Shown here: piece after piece, positions 820 through 55,155 of the stretch
Layout of the letters: every line of letters starts with the position of its first letter
Numbering within the stretch: the first letter of the stretch is position 1
NCBI GenBank assembly: GCA_002689995.1
Contig: NZIV01000081.1
Span: forward strand, 5,170 to 60,324
Source: Fidelibacterota bacterium
GTDB taxonomy: Bacteria > Fidelibacterota > Marinisomatia > SCGC-AAA003-L08 > GCA-2689995
Reading direction: 5' to 3'
Length of the DNA: 55,155 nucleotides
The notes under the pieces: generated by a model
Told to the model about the DNA's origin: nothing
What the model saw: the letters and a program-made list of their open reading frames with translations, nothing else
The model's database searches: none
Translations under genes and position numbers: made by a program

Positions 820-2691
820 ATGAGAATAATTTTAATAATTTTTTCAATATTTTCATTATCAATTTTATTTGGTAAAAAGATTCACATTATTACTACGAAC
901 GATTTGCATGGTGTAATATCACCACAAAAAGCATATTTTATGAATCCAAATTTTCCACCAGATATTTTAGGATGGGCAGCATATAGTCAATACGTAAATG
1001 ATTTAAGAGATGAATTAAAATCTAAAGGTGAAAACTTGCTTATTTTAGATGGGGGTAATTTTTTTCAGGGTAGCCCTGTTGGATTGGTCGACGGAGGTAA
1101 ATCTATCATTGAGTGGATGAATTTAATTGGTTATGATGCAGTTACCATTGGTCCTGATGATTTTCTTTTAGGCTTAGATAATATATCTGAATTAGCAGAA
1201 TTAGCCGATTTTCCTATTCTTGCTGCTAATATTAATTTTAAATCTACCAAGCCTTATACAATAAGAAATATTGAAGATATTAAGATTGGAATTATTGGAA
1301 TAATTCCCTCCAACTTAAATGAGTTAGTTATTGAGTCCAACATTCAAAATATAAATTTAAAAAAAGAAATTCCTACACTTAATAAAATGGTTAAAGAAGT
1401 GAAAGAATTAGGTGCAGACATTATCATTGTATTATCTAGTAATGGTATACCATGGAATAGAGAAAGAGAATATGAAAAATTTATAAGTAATGTATCAAGA
1501 TTTGATTCCAAGTTAGATGATATAAATGCATTAGAATTAGGGTATTTTGCTGAAAGTGTAGATTTAATTGTAGCTGGTGGGAATTCAAAAGGTTATCCTA
1601 CAATTTGGTATGATAAAAACAGTCACGTATTTATTACTCAAAACTATGGAAATGGAACTGAGTTCGGACATCTTATATTAGAAACTGAAGATAATAAATT
1701 ATCTAATATATACCCAGCCACGTCTGGAAGAATTGGACAAACTTTATTGGCAGATAATTTTAATGCAGACTATGAAACTTTAACCTTATTGAGAGATTTA
1801 GAATCTAGAGCAATATTTCAGCTTGAATCTAAAAATAATACATATAATAAAAATCACTTAATGACAAATCTACCTGTTAATAAAGATAGATGGAAATGTC
1901 CAAATTTAGATATAATTGATGAACTTGAAGTTGTAACATGGAATTGTGAATTCTTCCCAAAAGCAAATGATTCAACTATTTATGCATTGGCAGAAATTAT
2001 TATAAAATTAAATCCAGATTTAATTGGATTTCAAGAAATTCGTAAACGAGGATGGTTTGATGATTTGATGATTTATCTTCCTGATTATGACTATGCCATA
2101 GCGATGCAATCTTCTTTTATGGATAACGCTTTTATATACAAGAAGGATAGATTAAGGCTATTAAATCAATATGAACCCTTCGCTAATAATGATTACAATT
2201 TCGCTGGACGCCCACCTCTTCAATGTGATTTTTTATATGACTTTAATGGAAAAAACATTGAATTTACAGCAATTAATATCCATATGAAATGTTGTGATTC
2301 GGGACTAAAAAGAAGAAAACGTGCCAGTCAAATGTTACATAAATATGTTGATAAATTATACAATAAAAATAAAAATATAATTGTTCTTGGTGACTGGAAT
2401 GATGATTTGCTTGATAAAGAAGGTGAACATTGTTTTAATTCTTTTTTTAATGATGATAGGATGTACTTTGCAAATAATAAAATTTTAAACGATATTTCTC
2501 AAGTTTCATATCCAAAAGAACCTTTTATGAGTTTCTTAGATCATATACTAATAACTGAACAGTTCTTAAATTCTAAGATAGACTACAGAGTTATGACAAT
2601 TCCGATTGATGAATATATGGGAGGGTTTAATGTTTATGAAACTTATATATCCGACCATAAACCTGTCATGGTTGGAATACCTGTAAAATGA
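820..2691 (+). CDS. Secreted fusion: degenerate 5'-nucleotidase-type metallophosphatase domain + EEP nuclease/phosphatase domain
   Basis: Signal peptide at residues 1-18. Residues 20-300 resemble the UshA/5'-nucleotidase metallophosphoesterase fold: TNDLHG (Asp28, His30) is kept, but the GGD motif reads GGN (Asn80), the GNHE motif reads GPDD (about residue 108), the later T-H-x-G site reads SSNG and the GHSH site reads GNSK. The usual metal and catalytic residues are therefore largely gone. Residues 368-623 form an endonuclease/exonuclease/phosphatase domain with its catalytic set intact: Asn375 (TWNCE), Glu406 (FQEI), His488 (NIHMK), Asp525/Asn527 (GDWND), Asp612-His613 (SDHKP). Likely an extracellular or periplasmic hydrolase of nucleic acid or phosphoester substrates in which only the second domain is active. 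The stop overlaps the next start (ATGA); the next gene repeats the EEP domain. Confidence 0.85.
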   Translation: MRIILIIFSIFSLSILFGKKIHIITTNDLHGVISPQKAYFMNPNFPPDILGWAAYSQYVNDLRDELKSKGENLLILDGGNFFQGSPVGLVDGGKSIIEWMNLIGYDAVTIGPDDFLLGLDNISELAELADFPILAANINFKSTKPYTIRNIEDIKIGIIGIIPSNLNELVIESNIQNINLKKEIPTLNKMVKEVKELGADIIIVLSSNGIPWNREREYEKFISNVSRFDSKLDDINALELGYFAESVDLIVAGGNSKGYPTIWYDKNSHVFITQNYGNGTEFGHLILETEDNKLSNIYPATSGRIGQTLLADNFNADYETLTLLRDLESRAIFQLESKNNTYNKNHLMTNLPVNKDRWKCPNLDIIDELEVVTWNCEFFPKANDSTIYALAEIIIKLNPDLIGFQEIRKRGWFDDLMIYLPDYDYAIAMQSSFMDNAFIYKKDRLRLLNQYEPFANNDYNFAGRPPLQCDFLYDFNGKNIEFTAINIHMKCCDSGLKRRKRASQMLHKYVDKLYNKNKNIIVLGDWNDDLLDKEGEHCFNSFFNDDRMYFANNKILNDISQVSYPKEPFMSFLDHILITEQFLNSKIDYRVMTIPIDEYMGGFNVYETYISDHKPVMVGIPVK

Positions 2692-4445
2692 AATTAATCT
2701 TTTCATACATTTTTACAGTATCATTCTTATTTTCGCAGTCTTGTCCACCTGAAAATTTAATACCTATTACTCCATTACAGAATGAGTGGAATATTCCTAG
2801 TCAAAATGGATATTCAACTTTAGAAGTAATGACATGGAATTTAAAGCAATTCCCATTATCTGGTGATGAAACTATTGAAAATGTTCAGGAAATCATCTCA
2901 GATTTAAAAGTTGATTTAATAGCTTTTCAAGAAATTAATAGTTATGCAGCTTATCAGACATTACAAAATTTATTACCAGCTTATGAATTTATTATTACTA
3001 ATTATTGGGGTGATTTTTCATTGAATCTCGCCTATGCTTATAGAACAGATTTTTTAAATTTAAACAATTCAACAACACTTTTTTCTTCTGAAGGATATAA
3101 TTTTGCATATCGTTATCCATTTATGGCTTCATTTAGTTGGCAATGTGGAAATAGTAGTTTGAATTTTTCTGCAATAAATATTCATTTGAAAGCTTATGGA
3201 GATTCTGAAAGTTTTCAAAGACGATATGAATCTTGCCAAATAATTTCTGATTATATAAATGCTCAAATTAATATAGGTAATGATAAGATTATAGTTCTTG
3301 GAGATTTTAATGATGAAACTAACGAATCGCAAAATAATAATTCACTTTGGCCTTTAGTTGTTAATTCTAATTCACAATTTATTACTAATCAAATTAATGG
3401 AGATAATTATTTTAATAGCTACATATTAGGCAGTAGTTCATTAATTGATCACATTCTTATTACTACAGGATTTAATGATTATTTAATTAATGACTTAGTG
3501 ACAACTATTCGTATTGATGATTATGTTGGTTATAATTATTATACTAATAATATTTCAGACCATAGACCTGTTCTATGGAAAATTTATATTAATGAGGGTG
3601 AATTTTCTAGTGACTTAATAATTAATGAAATAATGAGCAATCCAAGTGCAGTTAGTGATGAATATGGTGAATGGTTTGAAATTTTCAATAATTCAGCATA
3701 TCAAATTAATTTAGATAATTATATAATAAGAGATAATGACGATGATTTTCATATTATAAATCAAGCGAATTTAATAATCCAACCAAATGATTTTCTTCTC
3801 CTTGGAAGAAATTCAAACAATTCGTTAAATGGTGGGATTAATGTTGATTATGAATATTCAGATTTCTTATTAGGAAATAGTTTTGATGAAGTTATAATTA
3901 CCTCTCCAAATGGAATTATAATTGACGAGGTTTGGTATGATAATGGCAATTCTTTTCCAGATCCTGTTGGAAAAAGCATGTCTCTTAATGATTATCTATT
4001 AGATAATTCAAATGGTAGTAATTGGTCAGAATCCACAAATCAACTTTTTAGTGGTGACTATAGTACACCAGGAGAAGAAAATTTTGGTTGTATAGAAATT
4101 ACATGGTATGCTGATTTTGATAATGATGGATTAGGTGATCCAGAGTTCTCAATTTTATCCTGTGATCAACCTGAACAATTTGTAGAAAATAATTTAGACT
4201 TAGATCCAAATTGCTCCTCAAATGATACTGATATATGCGGGGTTTGTGGAGGTATGGGTGTTGATGGTGATGTAAATAATGATAATTTTACAAATATTGT
4301 GGATGTAGTACAACTGGTTAGTCATATATTAGACAACTCAAATTTAGAAGAATTAGGCATCTGTAAAGGTGATTTAAATTCTGACAATATGATTAATATA
4401 GTAGATGTTGTTTTAATTGTAAATTTAATTTTAGCTGACTCATGA
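2688..4445 (+). CDS. Secreted EEP-family protein with lamin-tail and dockerin-type domains
   Basis: Signal peptide ending FLFSQ (residue 17). Residues 45-297 are an EEP hydrolase domain with Asn51 (TWNLK), FQEIN, NIHLK, GDFND and SDHRP, so it should be catalytically competent on DNA, RNA or phosphoesters. Residues about 304-420 match a lamin-tail domain (LIINEIMSNP, EWFEIFNN), a module often attached to secreted nucleases. A D-x-CGVCGG segment follows near 515, then a dockerin-like calcium-binding pair (GDVNNDNFTNIVDVV, GDLNSDNMINIVDVV) to the C-terminus. It overlaps both neighbours by ATGA, which suggests translational coupling with the first EEP gene, its paralogue. Probably cell-surface or secreted, perhaps phosphorus scavenging from DNA (inference). 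Confidence 0.85.
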   Translation: MKLIFSYIFTVSFLFSQSCPPENLIPITPLQNEWNIPSQNGYSTLEVMTWNLKQFPLSGDETIENVQEIISDLKVDLIAFQEINSYAAYQTLQNLLPAYEFIITNYWGDFSLNLAYAYRTDFLNLNNSTTLFSSEGYNFAYRYPFMASFSWQCGNSSLNFSAINIHLKAYGDSESFQRRYESCQIISDYINAQINIGNDKIIVLGDFNDETNESQNNNSLWPLVVNSNSQFITNQINGDNYFNSYILGSSSLIDHILITTGFNDYLINDLVTTIRIDDYVGYNYYTNNISDHRPVLWKIYINEGEFSSDLIINEIMSNPSAVSDEYGEWFEIFNNSAYQINLDNYIIRDNDDDFHIINQANLIIQPNDFLLLGRNSNNSLNGGINVDYEYSDFLLGNSFDEVIITSPNGIIIDEVWYDNGNSFPDPVGKSMSLNDYLLDNSNGSNWSESTNQLFSGDYSTPGEENFGCIEITWYADFDNDGLGDPEFSILSCDQPEQFVENNLDLDPNCSSNDTDICGVCGGMGVDGDVNNDNFTNIVDVVQLVSHILDNSNLEELGICKGDLNSDNMINIVDVVLIVNLILADS

Positions 4446-19803: not shown

Positions 19804-22800
19804 TTATTTATATGAATTAGTATGGATACTATTAATTATTTTAGGATTATCAAATTCTAAGTTTATCTGTCCAGTAAATTTGGTATTAAATAATGAATAT
19901 GCAACAATCTTGTCACTATAATTAATAAATTTCCAATCTTGTGTTAAATTATGGTTAATGATTTTTGTTTCATGATTTAGATTAATTTCAAAACTATAGA
20001 TTTCATCAACATTAAATATTATTGAATTTTCATCAAAAATATAATCTTGTATAATACTAACATTATTAGAAGGGCAAATAATATCATTTTGGATAAAATA
20101 AACTAGACATCCTAAATCTTGAACATCAATTATTCCATCAAAATTCAAGTTACTAGCCCATAATTCATATTCTGTTGGATTAAGTAAGAAATCATCTGTA
20201 CAAGAAAAGGATTGATTACACGCTATTGATTGTGCCATTGTTAAATCTAGTATATCAACTAAACTTGAATCATCAATTGTACCATTAAGATTACCTTGAC
20301 CATTTAAATATATATCTTGAAAGCTAACATTACCAATATTACCATATGATGTTATTTGAACTGGGGATAATTCGGACTGATTTCCATGTACATCATATGC
20401 TCCAATTTGATACTGTAATAATTGTCCAAAATTAAACCCGCCAGGGATAGTATAGTTATGATCTATAAATGAATGGGTATTAGACAGGTCTATTTGACTA
20501 CCATTTCTATAAATAACATAATGACTAAAGTCATTTTCAAGATTAGGATTCCATTCTAAAATTATTTCATCAGTAGCAAATCCTTCTTCATTGATAGCTA
20601 TTCTTGTTGTCAGTCCAGATGGCGTTAGTGGTTCAATATCATCCGTTGAATATCCATATTCAGGAAAATTACTAAAAGCAGATGAATCTAAATATCCTCT
20701 ATAATATACTTTAAAATAGTGGTAATTAGGATTATTTGGAATAAAGTTAGCTAAGGTAGGTGAAATAAAATAATAGCTATCTTCACCGGTTCCAGGGAAG
20801 GAACCAACATAATCCCATGTATCACTTTGGAAATTTCTAAAAACTTGATATAACGAATCTACAGTACCATTGTCAGAGTATGATCTTTGAACTTTTAATT
20901 TAACGTAACCACCCTGATCCCCTGGCACGTCATTAATTTCTCTTATTACAGGTAATTCGCCGATTTGCGGATTTGTTTCATCGCACTCAATCCTAGAATT
21001 TCCATTTATATTTCCATTTATATTTCCATTGTCTGGATCTAACATTCCATTCATTGTAGTTAATTTACCCTGACTAGCCATTATGAAATAACAATGTTCT
21101 TCTTGATAATCTAATCCTACATCGCTGTACTGTGTATTAGTTGTTATGACTAATGGAGTGAAGCATTGAGCCTCCCAAATACCATTATTTGATATACAGT
21201 TTTCTTCAGTTAAAAAAGATGAATTATCTCTATAAACTGTGTATTCCACATCATAGGGTTCCATACAATCTCCATATATACCATCTTGTTCTACATCTGC
21301 ACTGCAAGGTAAATATTCAATTGGATTAGTACTACAATTAGGAATATCATTACTATTATTATCACAATAGTTTTCAAAATTTGACCAATCACAGACTTCA
21401 TTTCCACATGATAAACAATCATCACTACACCATGTCCAGTTTTCGAATTGCTGTGGATGAGGTGCTCCATCTGTATATCCGCATTGCAATACACCATTTA
21501 CAAGTTGACAGTAATTTTCATCTTGGCATATACCATCACCACAATTTTGTTCAGGAATACAATCTCCTTGGTAGGATGAGCCTAAAAAAATCTCTGTTAA
21601 ACCTGTACTACATGTAAAAGGGTATCCATCTGGAACTATTTGACCAAAATATTCTGAATCTTCATTAGTATCTAGTGAAGGAGAATTTTCATCACTTCCT
21701 GATTCTTCAAACGGTTCTTGACAAATTCCATCACCACATGAAAAAATAGATGCCAAACCAAAACCTACTTGCCAAACAGAGGTATCAAATCTAACATTAG
21801 CTTTTTCATAAATAGTATTATTTGTTAAACTATTTTTAAGTACATATAAGGAATCAGATTCTGATTGAATAGTTAATGTATGTGTAACATATAACTCTTT
21901 TCCTACTAAAGATTCAGGATCATATGTTGCATCCATTTTAAATAAGGTTGTTCCTTCTTGAAGTATTTCACTATCAATATAATCACCTGAAAATGATTGT
22001 AAAGTTGCACTACCATTTGTTTCTGTATATGCAGAAAAGTCTAAGTCATCATCATCTAAAACTCCTATAGATGGTTGACCAAATTGAATACAATTTTGAT
22101 TTCCACCAAAGCAATCATCTTCATTTTCTGATAAATCATTTAAATTTGGAAATTCTTGAAAAACACTTAAGGTATCATAAATATCATAAATATCTAGATT
22201 TATTCTTGCAAAGTAAATATCTACGTCAGCTTGTAAACTTAGATAAAAACTCACAGTACCCTGACCATCATCTTCAATTTGATCGATAGATATTTTTGCA
22301 TCTAAGTTATTTATATTTTCGCGAATAGTATTATTATTCGACGAAGTATGAAATACATCATTATCTAAATTCATATCACAGTCATAAATGTAAGGATTAC
22401 ATAGGTTTACTGGATCCCAATTCAGACCAATTTGTAAATTTGATGCTTGGGCAACTAAGTTAGTCGGTCCATCGAAGTAAGGGAAACATGCTGAAAAGTT
22501 CCCACCACAAATTCCACATTCATCTACACCTCCATTAGGACCAAGATAATCAAAACAATTGTCTCCTGATGGTTGATAAGGATTATATCCTAATATACCA
22601 TCACAATTATCCAATGAATAAGGATCATTTGGACCACAAGTGTTGTTGCAGTCTAGAGTTTCATTATAGTTTATTGTTGTCATACCACCCGAACAAACAC
22701 CACAATCATCTTTTTCGGCTGAACCAAAACATTGTCCATTACAATCAAAGTTACTTCCTGGATCAGTATGAGGAGTAAAACATATTGGGTAATTATCAGG

Positions 22801-23865
22801 ACATATGCACAAGCCATCTTCATTAACTGGTAGATCGTCTCCATTTTCATTTGTACAATAATTTTGTCCATTGCATAATCCACATGCTCCGAAATTATTA
22901 GAAACACAATATACTAAATCATTTTCATCATCGCAGTTATCAACATAGTTTTCAATAGGGAAACACGATGGTATCACCATATCTGAATTACCCAATCCAT
23001 CACCATCAAGATCTTGACAATAGTTTATTTCAGAGCAAAGAGTTGTGGAACATGAATTATTTGAAGTTTCAGTCACTCCTGAATTATTATCGATAGCCTC
23101 AACTTGAAAGCAATATTCATTTAATGGATACATATTTATTCCTTCAAATGAATTATCTACTAATAAATTATTTTCTGAAACTTCAGTAAATAATAATGTT
23201 GGATCAATTCTAGAAACTTTATAATTTATATCTAGTTCACACTCATCAGGACAAATACTATAATTCTCGTTTACTGTACAAATATTATCGCCACATTCAT
23301 CATCTGCAAGACCGCTTCCTACTTCCCAAATTACATTTTTCCATCTGATTGCTAATTGATTAGTAAAACTATTTGCAAATATTGATTCGTCATAATTTAA
23401 TCTAAAACTTGTTTCATCACTTTGATCAAAATCATAATTAGCAGTTAATTGAAAAAAAATCCCTGAAGTAGATGGAATGACACTACCATTATTACTGCCT
23501 ATAATTGAAAAATTACCAAATTCGTTGTTTATTGCTTCTACTGACCATCCAAAATTCTGTGTTAATCCGCTTGATATATTGAAGTTAGATAAGTATATAT
23601 CAGAAAGAATAGATAATTCAAACTGAGAAAATTGGACAGAATTCTCTATATAAAAATTCATTATTATAGTTTGATTATTAATATCCTGAATATCTGAAAT
23701 ATATATAATTGCATCAAAATAAGAATCTGAAGGATCCCATACATTCCAATTAAGTTGAATTTGATTATGACTTAAAGATTCAGATTCTAAATTTACTGGA
23801 GTGTCTTGGCTAAATAGTAAATAACACAAAGTATAAAAGATTAATAAATATTTTAAAGATCTCAT
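19804..23865 (-). CDS. Giant secreted Cys-rich protein with FN3-like domains and C-terminal dockerin-type repeats
   Basis: 1353 residues with a signal peptide ending LLFSQ. Fibronectin-III-like segments recur (ESLSHNQIQLNWN near 28; NLVAQASNLQIGLNWDP near 465; LTTRIAINEEG...ILEWNP near 1090). Between them are cysteine-rich blocks of two kinds: ECGICGG/DDCGVCSG, and CGDGIC/CGDNIC followed by CPDEC or WCSDDC, which may bind metal or form disulfides. A short run GNINGNINGN near 955 reflects a 12-base DNA repeat at about 20999-21030. A dockerin-like pair of segments (about 1205-1270, NLNGTIDDSSLVDILDL and NLNFDGIIDVQDL) sits before a final beta domain. Probably displayed on or released from the surface; function unknown. 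First gene of a minus-strand operon. Confidence 0.8.
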   Translation of the reverse strand: MRSLKYLLIFYTLCYLLFSQDTPVNLESESLSHNQIQLNWNVWDPSDSYFDAIIYISDIQDINNQTIIMNFYIENSVQFSQFELSILSDIYLSNFNISSGLTQNFGWSVEAINNEFGNFSIIGSNNGSVIPSTSGIFFQLTANYDFDQSDETSFRLNYDESIFANSFTNQLAIRWKNVIWEVGSGLADDECGDNICTVNENYSICPDECELDINYKVSRIDPTLLFTEVSENNLLVDNSFEGINMYPLNEYCFQVEAIDNNSGVTETSNNSCSTTLCSEINYCQDLDGDGLGNSDMVIPSCFPIENYVDNCDDENDLVYCVSNNFGACGLCNGQNYCTNENGDDLPVNEDGLCICPDNYPICFTPHTDPGSNFDCNGQCFGSAEKDDCGVCSGGMTTINYNETLDCNNTCGPNDPYSLDNCDGILGYNPYQPSGDNCFDYLGPNGGVDECGICGGNFSACFPYFDGPTNLVAQASNLQIGLNWDPVNLCNPYIYDCDMNLDNDVFHTSSNNNTIRENINNLDAKISIDQIEDDGQGTVSFYLSLQADVDIYFARINLDIYDIYDTLSVFQEFPNLNDLSENEDDCFGGNQNCIQFGQPSIGVLDDDDLDFSAYTETNGSATLQSFSGDYIDSEILQEGTTLFKMDATYDPESLVGKELYVTHTLTIQSESDSLYVLKNSLTNNTIYEKANVRFDTSVWQVGFGLASIFSCGDGICQEPFEESGSDENSPSLDTNEDSEYFGQIVPDGYPFTCSTGLTEIFLGSSYQGDCIPEQNCGDGICQDENYCQLVNGVLQCGYTDGAPHPQQFENWTWCSDDCLSCGNEVCDWSNFENYCDNNSNDIPNCSTNPIEYLPCSADVEQDGIYGDCMEPYDVEYTVYRDNSSFLTEENCISNNGIWEAQCFTPLVITTNTQYSDVGLDYQEEHCYFIMASQGKLTTMNGMLDPDNGNINGNINGNSRIECDETNPQIGELPVIREINDVPGDQGGYVKLKVQRSYSDNGTVDSLYQVFRNFQSDTWDYVGSFPGTGEDSYYFISPTLANFIPNNPNYHYFKVYYRGYLDSSAFSNFPEYGYSTDDIEPLTPSGLTTRIAINEEGFATDEIILEWNPNLENDFSHYVIYRNGSQIDLSNTHSFIDHNYTIPGGFNFGQLLQYQIGAYDVHGNQSELSPVQITSYGNIGNVSFQDIYLNGQGNLNGTIDDSSLVDILDLTMAQSIACNQSFSCTDDFLLNPTEYELWASNLNFDGIIDVQDLGCLVYFIQNDIICPSNNVSIIQDYIFDENSIIFNVDEIYSFEINLNHETKIINHNLTQDWKFINYSDKIVAYSLFNTKFTGQINLEFDNPKIINSIHTNSYK

Positions 23866-48202: not shown

Positions 48203-48955
48203 ATGTTTAAGAAAGCTAAAATAATAATTATTTGTTCAGGCTTGTATTTGACTGGAATTGCCTATGCAAATACAGATTTAAATGAAAAGTTAGACAGATT
48301 ATTAGATAATCAGAAAGTAATTTTAACTCGCTTGCAAAAGTTGGAAAAAAATCAAATTGAATTATCTAAAAAAGTAAATTCCAATTCTGGGGCTGCAAAT
48401 AAAAAAAATAATAGACCTCAGGTAGATTATAATAAAGAATATAAAGTACCTGTTGGTAACTCAATTGTATTAGGTAATCCAAACGCAAAAGTTACAATAA
48501 TCAAATGGACAGACTTTCAATGACCTTATTGCGCTAAATCTACCGGTCTGGTAGATGATATTTTGAAGAAATATCCAAAAGATGTTAGAGTAGTGGTGAA
48601 AAACTTTCCTCTTGGTTCACATAAACAAGCAAATAAAGCAGCATTATATTCACTAGCTGCCGGAAGACAAGGAAAGTATAAAGAAATGTTTAATAAAATA
48701 TTTGATAATTGGAGGCAACTTCGTAACAATGAAGATTTACCGATTGAATACGCAAAAGATTTAGGTTTAAATATTGACCAGATTAAATCTGATATCAGTG
48801 ACCCATCATTGCAAAAAATTATTAATGATGAGATGGATCAATTAAAAGGAACTGGAATGAGAATGGCCGTTCCAAAATTTCTGATAAACGGTAAAGAACC
48901 TCAAGGAAGAGATTTGGCTTCTTGGTCAAAAATAATTGATGGTTATCTAAAATAA
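48203..48955 (+). CDS. Predicted selenoprotein: exported DsbA/thioredoxin-fold oxidoreductase with Sec-Pro-Tyr-Cys active site
   Basis: 250 residues if TGA at 48521-48523 is read through as selenocysteine (residue 107). Upstream: signal peptide ending IAYA, a coiled-coil-like helix (LDRLLDNQKVILTRLQKLEKN), then VTIIKWTDFQ. The frame continues unbroken after TGA with PYCAKSTGLVDDILKKYP, VVVKNFPLGSHKQANKAALYSLAAG and the cis-proline loop VPKFLINGKEP before its TAA. In relatives the sequence is TDFQCPYC, so TGA replaces exactly the first active-site cysteine; the second (Cys110) is kept. A hairpin fitting a bacterial SECIS follows. Other genes in the window end at TGA normally. AGGA 8 bases before ATG and TATAAT at 48179-48184 suggest its own expression signals; an intrinsic terminator follows. 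Alternative: a nonsense mutation or sequencing error. Confidence 0.88.
48538..48556 (+). promoter_or_regulatory. Candidate bacterial SECIS element
   Basis: ATCTACC (48538-48544) and GGTAGAT (48550-48556) form a perfect 7-bp stem closed around loop GGTCT. The loop begins 21 bases after the TGA, inside the 16-37 base window usual for bacterial SECIS, and starts with GG as the consensus asks. From memory the E. coli fdhF SECIS apical loop is AGGUCU, almost identical. The bulged U known from fdhF is not seen. It lies within the coding sequence, as bacterial SECIS elements do. Confidence 0.78.
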
Positions 48956-48986: not shown

Positions 48987-49019
48987 AAGGGAGGTATTTT
49001 AAGGCCTCCCTTTTATTTT
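48987..49019 (+). terminator. Intrinsic terminator after the selenoprotein gene
   Basis: AAGGGAGG (48987-48994) pairs with CCTCCCTT (49005-49012), an 8-bp stem with a 10-base loop, followed by a run TTTTATTTT. It is the clearest intrinsic terminator in the window and separates the selenoprotein gene from the giant LRR gene. The rest of the gap (49020-49113) is AT-rich with no feature beyond a purine-rich GAGAGAAGAGAG just before the next gene. Confidence 0.9.
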
Positions 49020-49113: not shown

Positions 49114-52100
49114 CTGAAAAAAATATTAGTCATATTAACATTAATAATTTTTTTTAAAATTGGAGTTTCGCAAGAATACTATCCTGCTGAAAGAGCTGCA
49201 TTAAATGAGTTGATTTTAGCTAATAACTTAATACAACCTTTCAGTGGCAATTCAATAACTTTAGATAATTCATACCTTTTGAATTACATTCCATTTGGCA
49301 ATACAACAATAGAAACAATTGGAGTTGAAGAAAATTGTACAACTACTTTTTGTAGGATTGTATCCATAGACTTTACCAATTTCAATATTACAACTATTCC
49401 CGAAAGTTTCAACCAATTTATTATGTTGAAATCTCTTGTTTTAAAAAATAACAATATCGAAGAATTACCTTTAGAACTATATGATTTAATATACTTGGAA
49501 CATTTAGATTTATCCATAAATCAAATCGAAGAATTAGAATATAGTTTAGGTTCTTTTACTAACTTAAACTATTTAAATATTTCATCAAATAATTTATCTG
49601 AATTACCTGAATCTTTAACTTTACTTCCATTACTATCTTATCTAGATGTTTCGCTAAATAATTTATTAGAATTTAATTTTTATAATTTACCGAATATCGA
49701 AACACTTTTTTTAGGTGGTAATAGTATATCTGAATTAAATCAATTATTCTGTGATTTAAATATTAATTGGTCAAATTATGGTAATATAGTCACAGATAAT
49801 TATTTGTGTTCAAATATTCCTACTTGTTTATCTGAAACCAATACAGTAGGATCTCAATTTTGTAATGAAAATCAGAAGGAGCTATTACAATCTATAATTA
49901 ATCAAAATGGATTAAATGAAGATTCCAGTATTAATGACTATGATAATAATGATTCAGAATTTATACCAATAGAGCTAGGCTATCAAAGATGGGAACTAGG
50001 TCAAATTGTCGAACTAAACTTATCCTCAAATCCAAATAATAATATGGAATATGGATATGAAATATCTTTTTTTCCAAATGATTTATCACAATTTACATCT
50101 CTAGAATATTTAGATTTAGGGAATAATCAATTAACTAATATACCTATAGACATTGGGTTGTTAACCGAATTAATTTCCTTAAAATTTGATAATAATTTTA
50201 TTTCGGGAAATTTAACTGATGGTGGAGTTCCTAATGAAATTGGTCAATTGAGTAATCTTAAGATTTTATCAATAGCCAATAATTATCTTACAATCCCTAA
50301 CCCAGCAATTTACAATCTAAACAGTTTAGAAGAACTGTATCTAAATAATAATGAAATATACTACATTGATAATGAGATAGGTAGTTTAGTGGAATTAAAG
50401 ATTTTAAAATTAAATAATAATGATATCTCTACTATTCCTAATGAAATAAGATTTCTTGATGGTTTAGTTGAGTTTAATGCTTCACATAACGAACTTATTT
50501 CATTCAACACTAATTTCCGATATTTAAACCAATTACGGAATCTTGATCTTGGTAATAATTTTATACAAGAAATCCCAACTTCTATAAGCCAAATGTTGAA
50601 TTTGCGTGAAATAAAATTAAATAATAATCAATTAACATTAATTCCTGAAGAAATATTTAATTTATATCATTTAAAAAATTTACACTTACAATATAATTCG
50701 TTAATATCATTTGATCATGATTTTAGTAATTCGCCTCATCTTGAAGAATTAAAACTACATTATAATCAACTACATGAACTTCCTGGATCAATATGTTCAA
50801 TCGACATAGATTTCAATCAAGATGCAAATCAAATAAATAACCTTATCACATTACAACAGAATTACTTCTGCTTTAATTTACCTTATTGTATTGAAAACCA
50901 TGAAAATACACAGGAATTGATAGGAGAGCAGGATTGCTATGGTAGTGACATTCAAGTATTGGATGAGTTGATGGAGTTAAATCAAATTAGCGGAAGTCCT
51001 TCTAATTTAGGTGTTTGGGAAAATGATAGATTGGTCGAGCTAAATTTATCAAATCAAAATATCTCTACTTTACCAAACAATTTAGGATATCTTGCTGAGT
51101 TAAAATATTTAAATTTGTCAAATAATATTATTTCCGAAATCCCAGAAACAATTGGATATTTAAACCAATTAGATTCTTTAGATTTTTCAAATAATTTAAT
51201 GCAAAACCTTCCAAGTCAATTTGATGGTTTAACGGAATTAAAGATTCTAGATTTATCGTTTAATTCTTTAATAGAATATCCTGTTGTTATAAATGATTTA
51301 GCTTCCCTAACTAGTTTAGATTTAAGTTATAACATACTTTTAGAAATCCCTTCATCAATTAATGAGCTAATAAATATTAGACGTCTTTCTCTTTCAGGAA
51401 ATTCATTGACTGCAATTCCTAGTGAAATTGGCGATTTAAATCTATTAAATGAGCTTAATATATCTTTTAATAACTTGCTAGTATTACCAGAAGACATTAG
51501 TAACTTAAGTGAATTAACAATATTTTCGTTAGAAAATAATGAATTAGATAGTATACCACCTGTTTTTAATCATTTACATAACTTAAAAAATCTAAATTTA
51601 TCGAATAATAATATTGTTGAGTTACAGGAGAACTTCTTTGTTAATTCAAGTTTGGAGAACTTGAATCTATCACATAATAAATTACTTAGACTACCTGAAT
51701 CAATTTGTAGTGATAATAATATTAATATTGATTTAAATGATAATTACCTTTATTGCGTTTTAGGATTAGAAAATAATCAATATTTTGGTTACATGGATGA
51801 AGTCATGATTCCTGACTGTATTGATAATAACATTAACATAAATGGATTAATACCATCAAGTCAAGGCTGTAGCTATTATGGCTGTACTGCAGATCAAGGT
51901 TCTCCTAAGGGAGAAGCATTAAACTATGATGAAATGGCAATAATGTCTTGTAGTTCAGACGGATCATATGATAATTTGAATGATTGCTGTCTATATGTTG
52001 AGGGTCCAGATATCTTTGTAAGGCCAATTGATTCAGTAATAAATCCTGGTTCAGATGTAAGTGGAGATGGTTCTTTTGAGAATCCCTTTGCTAGTATAGA

Positions 52101-55100
52101 TAAAGCAGTCAGATTGGCTGGTTATCGAGACAGAGTTATTGTAGATGTCGGTGAATATTATGAAAGTATAAATATAGAAAATAAAAGTGCAGTTTCTATT
52201 GTATCTAACTCAATATTCGAATCGGATGTGAACTTACAAAATTATTACATGGAAAATACAATTATTAATGGAAACAATTTTGAAAGTTGCTTTAATATTT
52301 CAAATAGTGGGGATACTAGTGAAATCGAGATATCAGGATTAACAATAAAAAATGGACGAAATGATTTTGGTGGAGGTTTAAAAATAAATAACTCTAATGT
52401 ATTGTTAGATAATGTTATTTTAACTGAAAATACTGGAACTATTAATGGTGGTGCTTTATTTATCGGAGGTCTTTCTGATGTAAAGATATATAATTCATTA
52501 ATTGACACTAATTTATCAGTCACGGGTACTGGTTTTGGAGGCGGATTATATGCTGAAAATAATTCATCAATTCATATAAAAAATACAGAAATCTCACGAA
52601 ATAAAAGTAATAGTGGTGGGGGAATTTATTTAAATAATAATAATAAAGTTACATTTGAAAAATGTAATATTAACAATAATATAGCAATTAACGATGGTGG
52701 TGGATTTTTCAATACAAATGATTCACTAGAATTTTTACATTACATAAATGATATAAATGGTCAGCAAGATACAATACTTACCTACATTGAAGAAAATAAA
52801 TCAAGAAATGGTGCAGGTATATATCAATTAAATAATCATTCATCGATAGAAGGTGTTGTTATAAATAAAAATAATGCTGAAGAAAGAGGCGGTGGTTTAT
52901 ATTTATTTTCTCCAAATTTCGCAAATCAAATAAATAACTTAATTGTAACTCAAAATACTGCTGAACTAGGAAGTGGTGTTTATATTTCTAATTCTAATTT
53001 AAAATTTTATCATATGACATTTTACGATAATTTATCAGTAAACAGTAATATGATTTATATTGGAGAAAATTCACAAGTTGATATATATAATTCAATTCTT
53101 TGGAATAATAATGATGATAATATAATTTATACGCCTGAATCATCAAATCTAGATATACATCATTCTATATTATCATTCGAATTTAATGGTAATCATAATC
53201 AGTTTCTAAGCCCTGAATTTTCTGATTTAAATAATTTTAATCTTTCAAGAGTTAGTTCTGCGTTGGGAATGGGTATTAATAATCAAAATATTCCACTTAC
53301 AGATATATATGGTAATAATAGAATTATGTCAACAGAATTAGAACAAGATAGTAATCCGGATATTGGTGCAACTGAATTCTATCTTGGCTCTATGCAATTC
53401 TATAATTGGTTTGTAAGTAATAACGGAAATAACAGTAGTACTGGATTAACTACGGACGAACCAAAAGCAAGTATAAATAATACTATAAATAGTGCTTTAA
53501 ATGGAGATAGAATATATATAAAAAATGGTATTTATAATGAAAATATTATATTTAATGGTAAAAATATTAAATTAATGAATTATAAGTACTACACATTAAA
53601 TTCTACAGAATGTAATTATATTAATTACGAAACAATTGAAGATGTTATTATTCGAGGAATAAATAATTTTCCTGTAATTCAAATTCTAGACAATGATGAT
53701 AATGTAGAAATATGTGGTTTTACAATTAAGGATGGAGAGTCTAATAATGGTGCTGGAATTTTAATATCTAATTCTAATCCTAAAATTTCAAATTTAATTA
53801 TTAAAGATAATTACAGCCAATTAAACGGTGGTGGAATTTTTGGGGATAATTTTAATGGAGAATTAAATAATATTGAAATAACAGGAAATATATCAGCTGG
53901 TAATGGAGGAGGAATTTATTTAGTAAACTCATCGCCTATCATGAAGGATATAATTATCTCTGAAAATACAAATCGTGTAGGAAACTATGATCTAGATGGT
54001 GCAGGTATGTATTTGATTGATTCATATTTAGTAAACTTTGAATCAATAAAAATTTTCAATAATTATGCAAGCAGCCAAGGTGGTGGAATCTATTTGATTA
54101 ATTCTGTAATAGAAAATATAGTTGAATTAAAACTTGAATCAAACTCTTCAAATCAAAGTGGCGGTGGAATATATTCGTTAAATTCAGAAATTACATTTAA
54201 TGGAACATTTATTTCTGATATATTTAATAATTCTTCAAATCAAGATGGTGGTGGAATCTATTTAAAATCTGGAAATATAAATGGTAGCTATATTAATATT
54301 TCAGAAAATAATTCAAATAAAGATGGTGGTGGAATCTATATAGATGATGGTGGAATAATAAAATTAGTAGATTCAGATATAATTAATAATAGCGCCTCAG
54401 AAGATGGTGGTGCAATTAGTGTTAATGGATATGATACAAAATTAATATTAGAATATTGTAACATATCTAATAATACTTCAGAAACTTCCTCCATATTATA
54501 TGCAAATAATGGAGATGTTAAAATTAAAAACTCGCTAGTTGAAGGGAATAATTCATTTAATTATCCTGGTGGTATTCTTGCAAAAAATTCAAATATTTCT
54601 CTTTTAAATGTGACACTTACTAATAATAGAGTTGTCCAGCCTGGTGCAGGAGGTAATATTAATATAGAGCAATTCGGTACATTTAATATAATAAATTCGA
54701 TTCTTTGGAATAATGATGGTATTGGTATATATCTAAGAGATGATGGTTATTCCAAATCTATACTAGCAACCCATTCAGCATTTAATAATGGTAGGAATGG
54801 TATCCATAGCTCTCCTTCAGATTCTGTTTATTATTATAATGAATTCAATATTTCCTCAGATCCTAAATTTATATCCCCTAATGAAGGATTTTATTATATA
54901 ACAAAAGAATCACCATGCGTTGACACTGGGATTAGTTTATATCCACCGAATGCAAATTCATTCAATGATACTATTTTGTATATACCTCAAACTGATATTG
55001 TTGATGGAGATGGTGATGGTATTGCTAAGCCAGATATGGGTACTTATGATAAAAGAGTTCTGTCTGTATTTCCTGGTGATATTAATAATGATGGAATTGT

Positions 55101-55155
55101 AAATATAGATGACATTATAAATGTAATTACATATTTTAATTTCAATGGAATACCT
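49114..55155 (+). CDS. Giant secreted LRR/beta-helix/dockerin protein (3' end outside window), apparent CTG start
   Basis: One frame is open from a TAG at 49096 to the window's end (2014 codons from CTG 49114). Residues 2-19 are a signal peptide (KKILVILTLIIFF, ending GVSQ); no ATG, GTG or TTG precedes them, so CTG 49114 behind a purine-rich GAGAG is the likely start. Three blocks of 23-residue leucine-rich repeats (about 75-235, 290-590, 615-890; typical LxxLxLSxNxIxxIPxxIG) are separated by Cys-containing capping segments. Two right-handed beta-helix domains follow (about 965-1425 and 1430-1955), rich in GGGIYL turns, each starting with a 'GDGSFENPFASIDKAV'-like motif. A dockerin-type repeat (GDINNDGIVNIDDIINVITYF) begins near 1989. 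Probably a surface adhesin or carbohydrate-binding protein; no catalytic site is evident. Confidence 0.88.
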   Translation, partial: MKKILVILTLIIFFKIGVSQEYYPAERAALNELILANNLIQPFSGNSITLDNSYLLNYIPFGNTTIETIGVEENCTTTFCRIVSIDFTNFNITTIPESFNQFIMLKSLVLKNNNIEELPLELYDLIYLEHLDLSINQIEELEYSLGSFTNLNYLNISSNNLSELPESLTLLPLLSYLDVSLNNLLEFNFYNLPNIETLFLGGNSISELNQLFCDLNINWSNYGNIVTDNYLCSNIPTCLSETNTVGSQFCNENQKELLQSIINQNGLNEDSSINDYDNNDSEFIPIELGYQRWELGQIVELNLSSNPNNNMEYGYEISFFPNDLSQFTSLEYLDLGNNQLTNIPIDIGLLTELISLKFDNNFISGNLTDGGVPNEIGQLSNLKILSIANNYLTIPNPAIYNLNSLEELYLNNNEIYYIDNEIGSLVELKILKLNNNDISTIPNEIRFLDGLVEFNASHNELISFNTNFRYLNQLRNLDLGNNFIQEIPTSISQMLNLREIKLNNNQLTLIPEEIFNLYHLKNLHLQYNSLISFDHDFSNSPHLEELKLHYNQLHELPGSICSIDIDFNQDANQINNLITLQQNYFCFNLPYCIENHENTQELIGEQDCYGSDIQVLDELMELNQISGSPSNLGVWENDRLVELNLSNQNISTLPNNLGYLAELKYLNLSNNIISEIPETIGYLNQLDSLDFSNNLMQNLPSQFDGLTELKILDLSFNSLIEYPVVINDLASLTSLDLSYNILLEIPSSINELINIRRLSLSGNSLTAIPSEIGDLNLLNELNISFNNLLVLPEDISNLSELTIFSLENNELDSIPPVFNHLHNLKNLNLSNNNIVELQENFFVNSSLENLNLSHNKLLRLPESICSDNNINIDLNDNYLYCVLGLENNQYFGYMDEVMIPDCIDNNININGLIPSSQGCSYYGCTADQGSPKGEALNYDEMAIMSCSSDGSYDNLNDCCLYVEGPDIFVRPIDSVINPGSDVSGDGSFENPFASIDKAVRLAGYRDRVIVDVGEYYESINIENKSAVSIVSNSIFESDVNLQNYYMENTIINGNNFESCFNISNSGDTSEIEISGLTIKNGRNDFGGGLKINNSNVLLDNVILTENTGTINGGALFIGGLSDVKIYNSLIDTNLSVTGTGFGGGLYAENNSSIHIKNTEISRNKSNSGGGIYLNNNNKVTFEKCNINNNIAINDGGGFFNTNDSLEFLHYINDINGQQDTILTYIEENKSRNGAGIYQLNNHSSIEGVVINKNNAEERGGGLYLFSPNFANQINNLIVTQNTAELGSGVYISNSNLKFYHMTFYDNLSVNSNMIYIGENSQVDIYNSILWNNNDDNIIYTPESSNLDIHHSILSFEFNGNHNQFLSPEFSDLNNFNLSRVSSALGMGINNQNIPLTDIYGNNRIMSTELEQDSNPDIGATEFYLGSMQFYNWFVSNNGNNSSTGLTTDEPKASINNTINSALNGDRIYIKNGIYNENIIFNGKNIKLMNYKYYTLNSTECNYINYETIEDVIIRGINNFPVIQILDNDDNVEICGFTIKDGESNNGAGILISNSNPKISNLIIKDNYSQLNGGGIFGDNFNGELNNIEITGNISAGNGGGIYLVNSSPIMKDIIISENTNRVGNYDLDGAGMYLIDSYLVNFESIKIFNNYASSQGGGIYLINSVIENIVELKLESNSSNQSGGGIYSLNSEITFNGTFISDIFNNSSNQDGGGIYLKSGNINGSYINISENNSNKDGGGIYIDDGGIIKLVDSDIINNSASEDGGAISVNGYDTKLILEYCNISNNTSETSSILYANNGDVKIKNSLVEGNNSFNYPGGILAKNSNISLLNVTLTNNRVVQPGAGGNINIEQFGTFNIINSILWNNDGIGIYLRDDGYSKSILATHSAFNNGRNGIHSSPSDSVYYYNEFNISSDPKFISPNEGFYYITKESPCVDTGISLYPPNANSFNDTILYIPQTDIVDGDGDGIAKPDMGTYDKRVLSVFPGDINNDGIVNIDDIINVITYFNFNGIP

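Follow-up and report, generated by a model that had tools for sequence, protein, structure and literature searches.

A probable DsbA-like selenoprotein with a UPYC active site, conserved in an uncultured lineage of Fidelibacterota

What does a single in-frame TGA signify in the middle of an otherwise uninterrupted thioredoxin-fold gene? The question is raised by a locus in the window, i.e. the whole 55,155-nt stretch of DNA that was analysed, which belongs to a 2.9-Mb Fidelibacterota MAG of 87 contigs with 7.3% contamination. Ordinary ORF calling yields two pieces at this locus, 48203-48523 and 48563-48955, as the original prediction had stated. When TGA is read as selenocysteine (Sec, U) across 48203-48955, one product of 250 residues is obtained, in which the only TGA is U107 in the context TDFQ-U-PYC. 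The features of the locus are listed below.

48203-48955, + strand: predicted DsbA-like selenoprotein gene, whole; 250 aa with a single TGA in frame, ending in TAA; same TGA in 18 orthologues
48203-48268, + strand: residues 1-22, a predicted signal peptide, AYA preceding the cleavage site (translation inspected by eye)
48275-48376, + strand: residues 25-58, an N-terminal extension predicted to be helical, with a heptad-like pattern; a possible oligomerisation stalk (from the sequence, a low-confidence model and analogy with ScsC and Wolbachia alpha-DsbA2)
48458-48940, + strand: Thioredoxin_4/DSBA domain, residues 86-246 (Pfam match; relatives in the PDB include 3gyk at E 6.5e-14)
48521-48523, + strand: UGA, predicted to specify Sec107 at the start of UPYC (aligned orthologues; Cys codon TGT in the orthologue L068)
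48530-48532, + strand: Cys110, second redox-motif residue; Cys at that column in every protein aligned
48538-48556, + strand: bacterial SECIS hairpin AUCUACC-GGUCU-GGUAGAU, apical loop 48545-48549, invariant G 48546 (folding, covariation, published constraints)
48872-48874, + strand: Pro224, the presumed cis-Pro (AVPKF); VPKF or IPKF conserved across all orthologues
48987-49012, + strand: intrinsic-terminator-like hairpin 3' of the selenoprotein gene
49114-55155, + strand: next gene, a giant surface protein of at least 2014 aa and a possible substrate; contains LRR repeats and a right-handed beta-helix and extends past the contig end

The full-length reading matches PF13462 (Thioredoxin_4) with E 3e-23 over residues 86-246, spanning the TGA, and PF01323 (DSBA) with E 1e-14 and 54.7 bits against a cut-off of 25.6; Thioredoxin_4 is the best Pfam match, ahead of DSBA. 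Translation and domain matches together confirm the earlier description of a lone TGA at the N-terminal Cys of the CxxC motif of a thioredoxin-fold gene, and the PF01323 match combined with UxxC (here UPYC) is what characterizes a DsbA-like UxxC selenoprotein. The gene is almost certainly an intact selenoprotein gene whose UGA is read as Sec at the active site. Codon, decoding machinery, SECIS element, fold family and conservation are observed, and from these we infer Sec insertion itself: SelB and Sec-tRNA-Sec, recruited by the downstream SECIS hairpin, would decode the UGA at codon 107. Scarcity of selenium makes UGA/SECIS decoding inefficient, so that the short product might be made by design, with termination at UGA and selenium-dependent readthrough serving as a switch. 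This is very improbable, as the truncated product would have neither the thioredoxin active site nor the core of the fold, and a separate role for it is without supporting evidence.

Selenoprotein status of the gene was examined further by comparison with relatives, the class (171 genomes) and the phylum (245 genomes). Other genera yielded 18 more orthologues, with 45-63% identity where the sequences align, and all 18 have exactly one internal TGA, always at the same alignment column. In the phylum sample of 245 genomes TGA is present in 19/19 genes found, and no Cys version of the gene was found there. A wider contig scan, using motif patterns able to match only Cys codons at the site, returned the only Cys orthologue found, L068, from a MAG titled Rickettsiales bacterium MED721; it is 63% identical and has TGT at the Sec site. 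The in-frame UGA is thus aligned with the redox Cys of homologues, being TGA in 19 genes, TGT in L068 and Cys in the PDB homologues. The sequence after the TGA is under purifying selection, with dN/dS values of 0.02-0.33 in those pairs that allowed an estimate, and the relatives keep both frame and TGA, with no sign of the frameshifts or further stops that would accompany decay. Among viral contigs no relatives of the gene were found, and the plasmids searched gave only distant DsbA-family proteins of less than 60% identity.

The hairpin begins 14 nt after the UGA and folds with -7.7 kcal/mol (z -3.75). Published constraints on bacterial SECIS elements, as given in a 2026 review, are a loop of 3-9 nt, a stem of 4-16 bp, a G in the first two loop positions, a distance of 16-37 nt from the UGA and an MFE of at most -7.5 kcal/mol (PMC13188914). 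The element here lies within all of them, having a 7-bp stem, the loop GGUCU, a spacing of 21 nt and the energy given above. Over the hairpin 19 orthologues align without gaps, loop positions G26 and U27 are invariant, and standard pairing is seen in 97.4% of 114 base-pair cells. Changes on both sides occur in 3/6 pairs (10 cells), compared with a mean of 1.2 in shuffles, of which 0/500 were as high. Codon constraint alone is insufficient to account for the hairpin because the changes on its two arms compensate each other. As a control, sliding the pairing partner by 1-3 columns lowers pairing to 31-52%; RNAalifold recovers the same helix. When the hairpin shape was slid along the codon alignment through 660 offsets, the UGA-anchored place was best at 97%, the next best giving 84% and the background a mean of 38%.

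In the Cys orthologue L068 at most two of the six hairpin pairs remain, and most shuffles of the region fold better than it does. SelA was not detected in its genome. Where Cys is used, hairpin and SelA are thus both absent, a clean natural experiment on Sec versus Cys, and the TGT of L068 provides the kind of aligned Cys by which the original prediction was to be judged.

A pseudogene or a sequencing error, in which a Cys codon was mutated or misread to TGA, would be conceivable in a MAG that has at least one other apparent single-base error (in selB, below). The same TGA in 18 other genomes, purifying selection downstream of it and a covarying SECIS leave this reading with next to no probability, and it is rejected, the orthologues refuting it.

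The genome was also expected to encode selA, selB, selC and selD, and all four are present, on contigs other than that of the window. On contig C63 of the same MAG selA (421.6 bits) is found with selB just downstream, and contig C14 has the tRNA-Sec gene selC (65.3 bits; called tRNA-SeC with anticodon tca by ARAGORN). At C68:74966-75889 selD is located (L011), with one in-frame TGA at the active-site position, SGAG-TGA-ACK. G+C content of these contigs is 27-29%, like the 28.5% of the window. As a side observation, selD is a selenoprotein gene too, and a short hairpin whose loop begins with G follows its TGA. Across the lineage, SelA was over the cut-off in 49/60 genomes searched.

The selB gene of the MAG has an apparent single-base frame shift ~440 nt into the gene (C63 about 23290-23320, L014), near a short T/A homopolymer run. 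Among 18 relatives the region is one open frame in 16; in one the contig ends earlier and one is without a recognisable start. Because relatives read through the same region, an assembly error is the simplest account, and probably the correct one; if the shift were real, Sec decoding would fail in this MAG.

Bacterial readthrough of UGA is known by other routes as well, but a lineage-wide reassignment (e.g. to Trp), or readthrough inserting another amino acid, is hardly credible given that TGA ends 5/31 window genes, that orthologues L027, L030 and L070 have the Sec-TGA inside and a TGA terminator as well, that the sel gene set is complete, and that TGA is confined to the redox Cys position, where the aligned non-TGA residue is Cys. 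General reassignment is accordingly rejected, TGA being a normal stop elsewhere. The locus appears then to be an actively maintained selenoprotein gene, split by standard gene calling, in a part of an uncultured class with near-universal SelA.

Selenoproteins of this general kind have been described before. The Sargasso Sea survey of 2005 reports UxxC selenoproteins that are DsbA-like (9 sequences) and DsbG-like (1) (PMC1088965), and the GOS survey lists DsbA 1-3 and DsbG-like selenoproteins (PMC2398784). A later count gives 45 DsbA-like selenoprotein genes in 41 organisms (PMC5029168), and the 2026 review lists both DsbA-like and DsbG-like selenoproteins, with most functions uncharacterised (PMC13188914). 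DsbA-like form 1 (PF01323, UxxC; 'DsbA 1' of GOS), as described in these sources, shares with the window protein a DSBA-fold domain over the Pfam cut-off, UxxC and a bacterial SECIS directly downstream (PMC1088965, PMC2398784, PMC13188914). It differs in that Thioredoxin_4 is the best Pfam match here; the comparison was with published descriptions of such DsbA-like UxxC selenoproteins, whose exemplars include AACY01178397 and NIP15863.1. The N-terminal stalk or lipobox and the Cys-rich T9SS neighbours of the window family do not figure in the available parts of those descriptions.

Among NCBIfam models the best match is NF041057, the Rcas_1661 family of thioredoxin-like (seleno)lipoproteins (DsbG-like), which has a Thioredoxin_4-type domain, export or a lipoprotein form, and UxxC in common with the window family. 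The match (E 1e-14) omits the N-terminal part of the window protein and scores 54.7 bits, where the curated cut-off is 190. Because the score is below this cut-off, annotation that depends on NF041057, the only curated DsbG-like Sec model, would probably miss the family. By sequence, the closest solved structure is 3gyk, a '27kDa outer membrane protein' (E 6.5e-14), the CPYC of which aligns with UPYC; unlike the window protein, 3gyk is a Cys enzyme without Sec.

On these comparisons of sequence the family is probably a distinct, well-supported new subfamily of the already known UxxC DsbA-like/DsbG-like selenoproteins. What appears to be new is that the family extends across the lineage and that its genes often lie next to those for giant Cys-rich surface proteins. 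The original prediction had considered such a protein worth reporting in this lineage; the selenoprotein stands, while its DsbA-like UxxC kind was already established by earlier studies (PMC1088965, PMC2398784, PMC13188914).

Export and the N-terminus bear on function. The window protein has a predicted signal peptide, and in 13/18 orthologues a lipobox-like Cys replaces this signal-peptide type (translations read by eye), so the product would be exported, in most relatives as a lipoprotein. Proteins from the order of the window have, ahead of the catalytic domain, ~35-60 residues that are heptad-like and rich in Lys, Glu and Gln; those of two further families in the class (L029, L070-L072) have a short N-terminus and no stalk. 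Residues 25-58 form a helix in a single-sequence AlphaFold2 model, at low confidence (pLDDT 35.6). In ScsC-type proteins and Wolbachia alpha-DsbA2 an N-terminal helical extension of ~50-60 residues leads to oligomerisation and isomerase activity (PMC6450060). The window protein shares the DsbA fold (by weak matches to such PDB chains) and a predicted helical extension with P. mirabilis ScsC, Wolbachia alpha-DsbA2 and Legionella DsbA2. It differs from ScsC-type isomerases in using Sec where they use Cys, the extension is shorter or absent in some of its orthologues, and its oligomer is predicted only.

Two further components are found in the same genome: a Cys-type VKOR-Thioredoxin_4 fusion with CKHC (L036:874-2046; the VKOR domain was checked in L036) and one full-length DsbD-like reductase. 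Weaker matches of similar length in genomes G003, G006, G009, G012 and G015 may be of the same VKOR-fusion kind.

The most likely role, by analogy, is that of a disulfide isomerase/reductase, to which we give about an even chance. The product would have the DsbA/DsbG fold and act as a thiol-disulfide oxidoreductase through its active site, Sec-Pro-Tyr-Cys. Its helical extension may bring catalytic domains together in an oligomer, in the manner of ScsC-type isomerases; the DsbD-like protein would keep the Sec-Cys pair reduced, and the separate VKOR-DsbA fusion would make disulfides de novo. An isomerase kept reduced by DsbD beside a VKOR-DsbA oxidase is favoured because the VKOR fusion and the DsbD-like protein co-occur and the extension resembles those of oligomeric isomerases. 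From this context we infer the oligomerisation, redox direction and clients of the selenoprotein.

It is somewhat less probable, but a serious alternative, that the same selenoprotein is an oxidase of the DsbA type, with the VKOR domain feeding it, or else a peroxide/thiol reductase. The protein does match the DSBA model, a VKOR fusion is encoded in the genome, and the residue before the presumed cis-Pro is a hydrophobic Val, as in E. coli DsbA. However, a Cys-based VKOR-DsbA fusion is already there for oxidation, a DsbD-like reductase is present, and the N-terminal extension resembles that of ScsC-type isomerases. With Sec in it, a UxxC pair moreover has a lower redox potential, which favours reduction. 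Of the 'highly reactive periplasmic oxidoreductase' proposed originally, the exported DsbA-fold selenoprotein is retained; its reactivity and role are deduced, and isomerase/reductase is likelier than DsbA-type oxidase.

Possible clients of an isomerase/reductase may be suggested by the surrounding genes. Cys-rich ORFs, defined as ORFs of 150 aa or more with at least 2.5% Cys at position -1, +1 or +2, flank the selenoprotein gene in 12/19 loci. In 400 kb from the same genomes (20 sampled stretches of ~20 kb) 5-6% of ORFs are Cys-rich, which with about three neighbours each gives a chance expectation of ~16% of loci, the loci being related and not independent. Cys-rich neighbours are missing at the window locus and six other loci. 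The giant neighbour in the window, with an apparent CTG start at 49114 (the start codon being uncertain), contains only 1.2% Cys and is not Cys-rich. The terminator-like hairpin at 48987-49012 lies between the two genes, so that co-transcription is unsupported and only their position links them.

Type IX sorting domains (Por_Secre_tail, FlgD_ig) occur on several neighbours, and 75 matches to such sorting tails in the window's own genome indicate that T9SS-tailed genes are common there. Surface proteins encoded alongside the selenoprotein gene, which are giant, often rich in Cys and secreted by the type IX route, are put forward as its clients only tentatively. The fuller proposal, in which the lineage has its own Sec disulfide isomerase reserved for the folding of giant Cys-rich surface proteins that leave the cell by type IX secretion, is likewise possible rather than probable. 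Nothing relevant came up in a literature search on selenoproteins in connection with type IX secretion. The neighbourhood with giant Cys-rich secreted proteins nonetheless provides a testable hint of the targets of a UxxC DsbA-like selenoprotein, and, if true, selenium would serve oxidative folding of cell-surface proteins in uncultured T9SS bacteria.

Several observations on these and other genes may be added. The giant neighbour at 49114-55155 has a dockerin-like DINNDGIVNIDDI end. In giant neighbour ORFs at the other loci (L073-L087) Cys makes up 3-9% of residues, the highest count being 166 in 1916 aa (8.7%), and several of these ORFs carry T9SS sorting domains; the most Cys-rich neighbour ORF matched no Pfam family. 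Elsewhere in the window, 19804-23865 on the negative strand is an ORF of 1353 aa, 4.3% of them Cys, that matches neither Pfam nor NCBIfam, another Cys-rich giant protein. Two adjacent endonuclease/exonuclease/phosphatase-family proteins are encoded at 820-2691 and 2688-4445, of which the former resembles metallophosphatases (UshA-like) in its N-terminal part and the latter has a lamin-tail domain.
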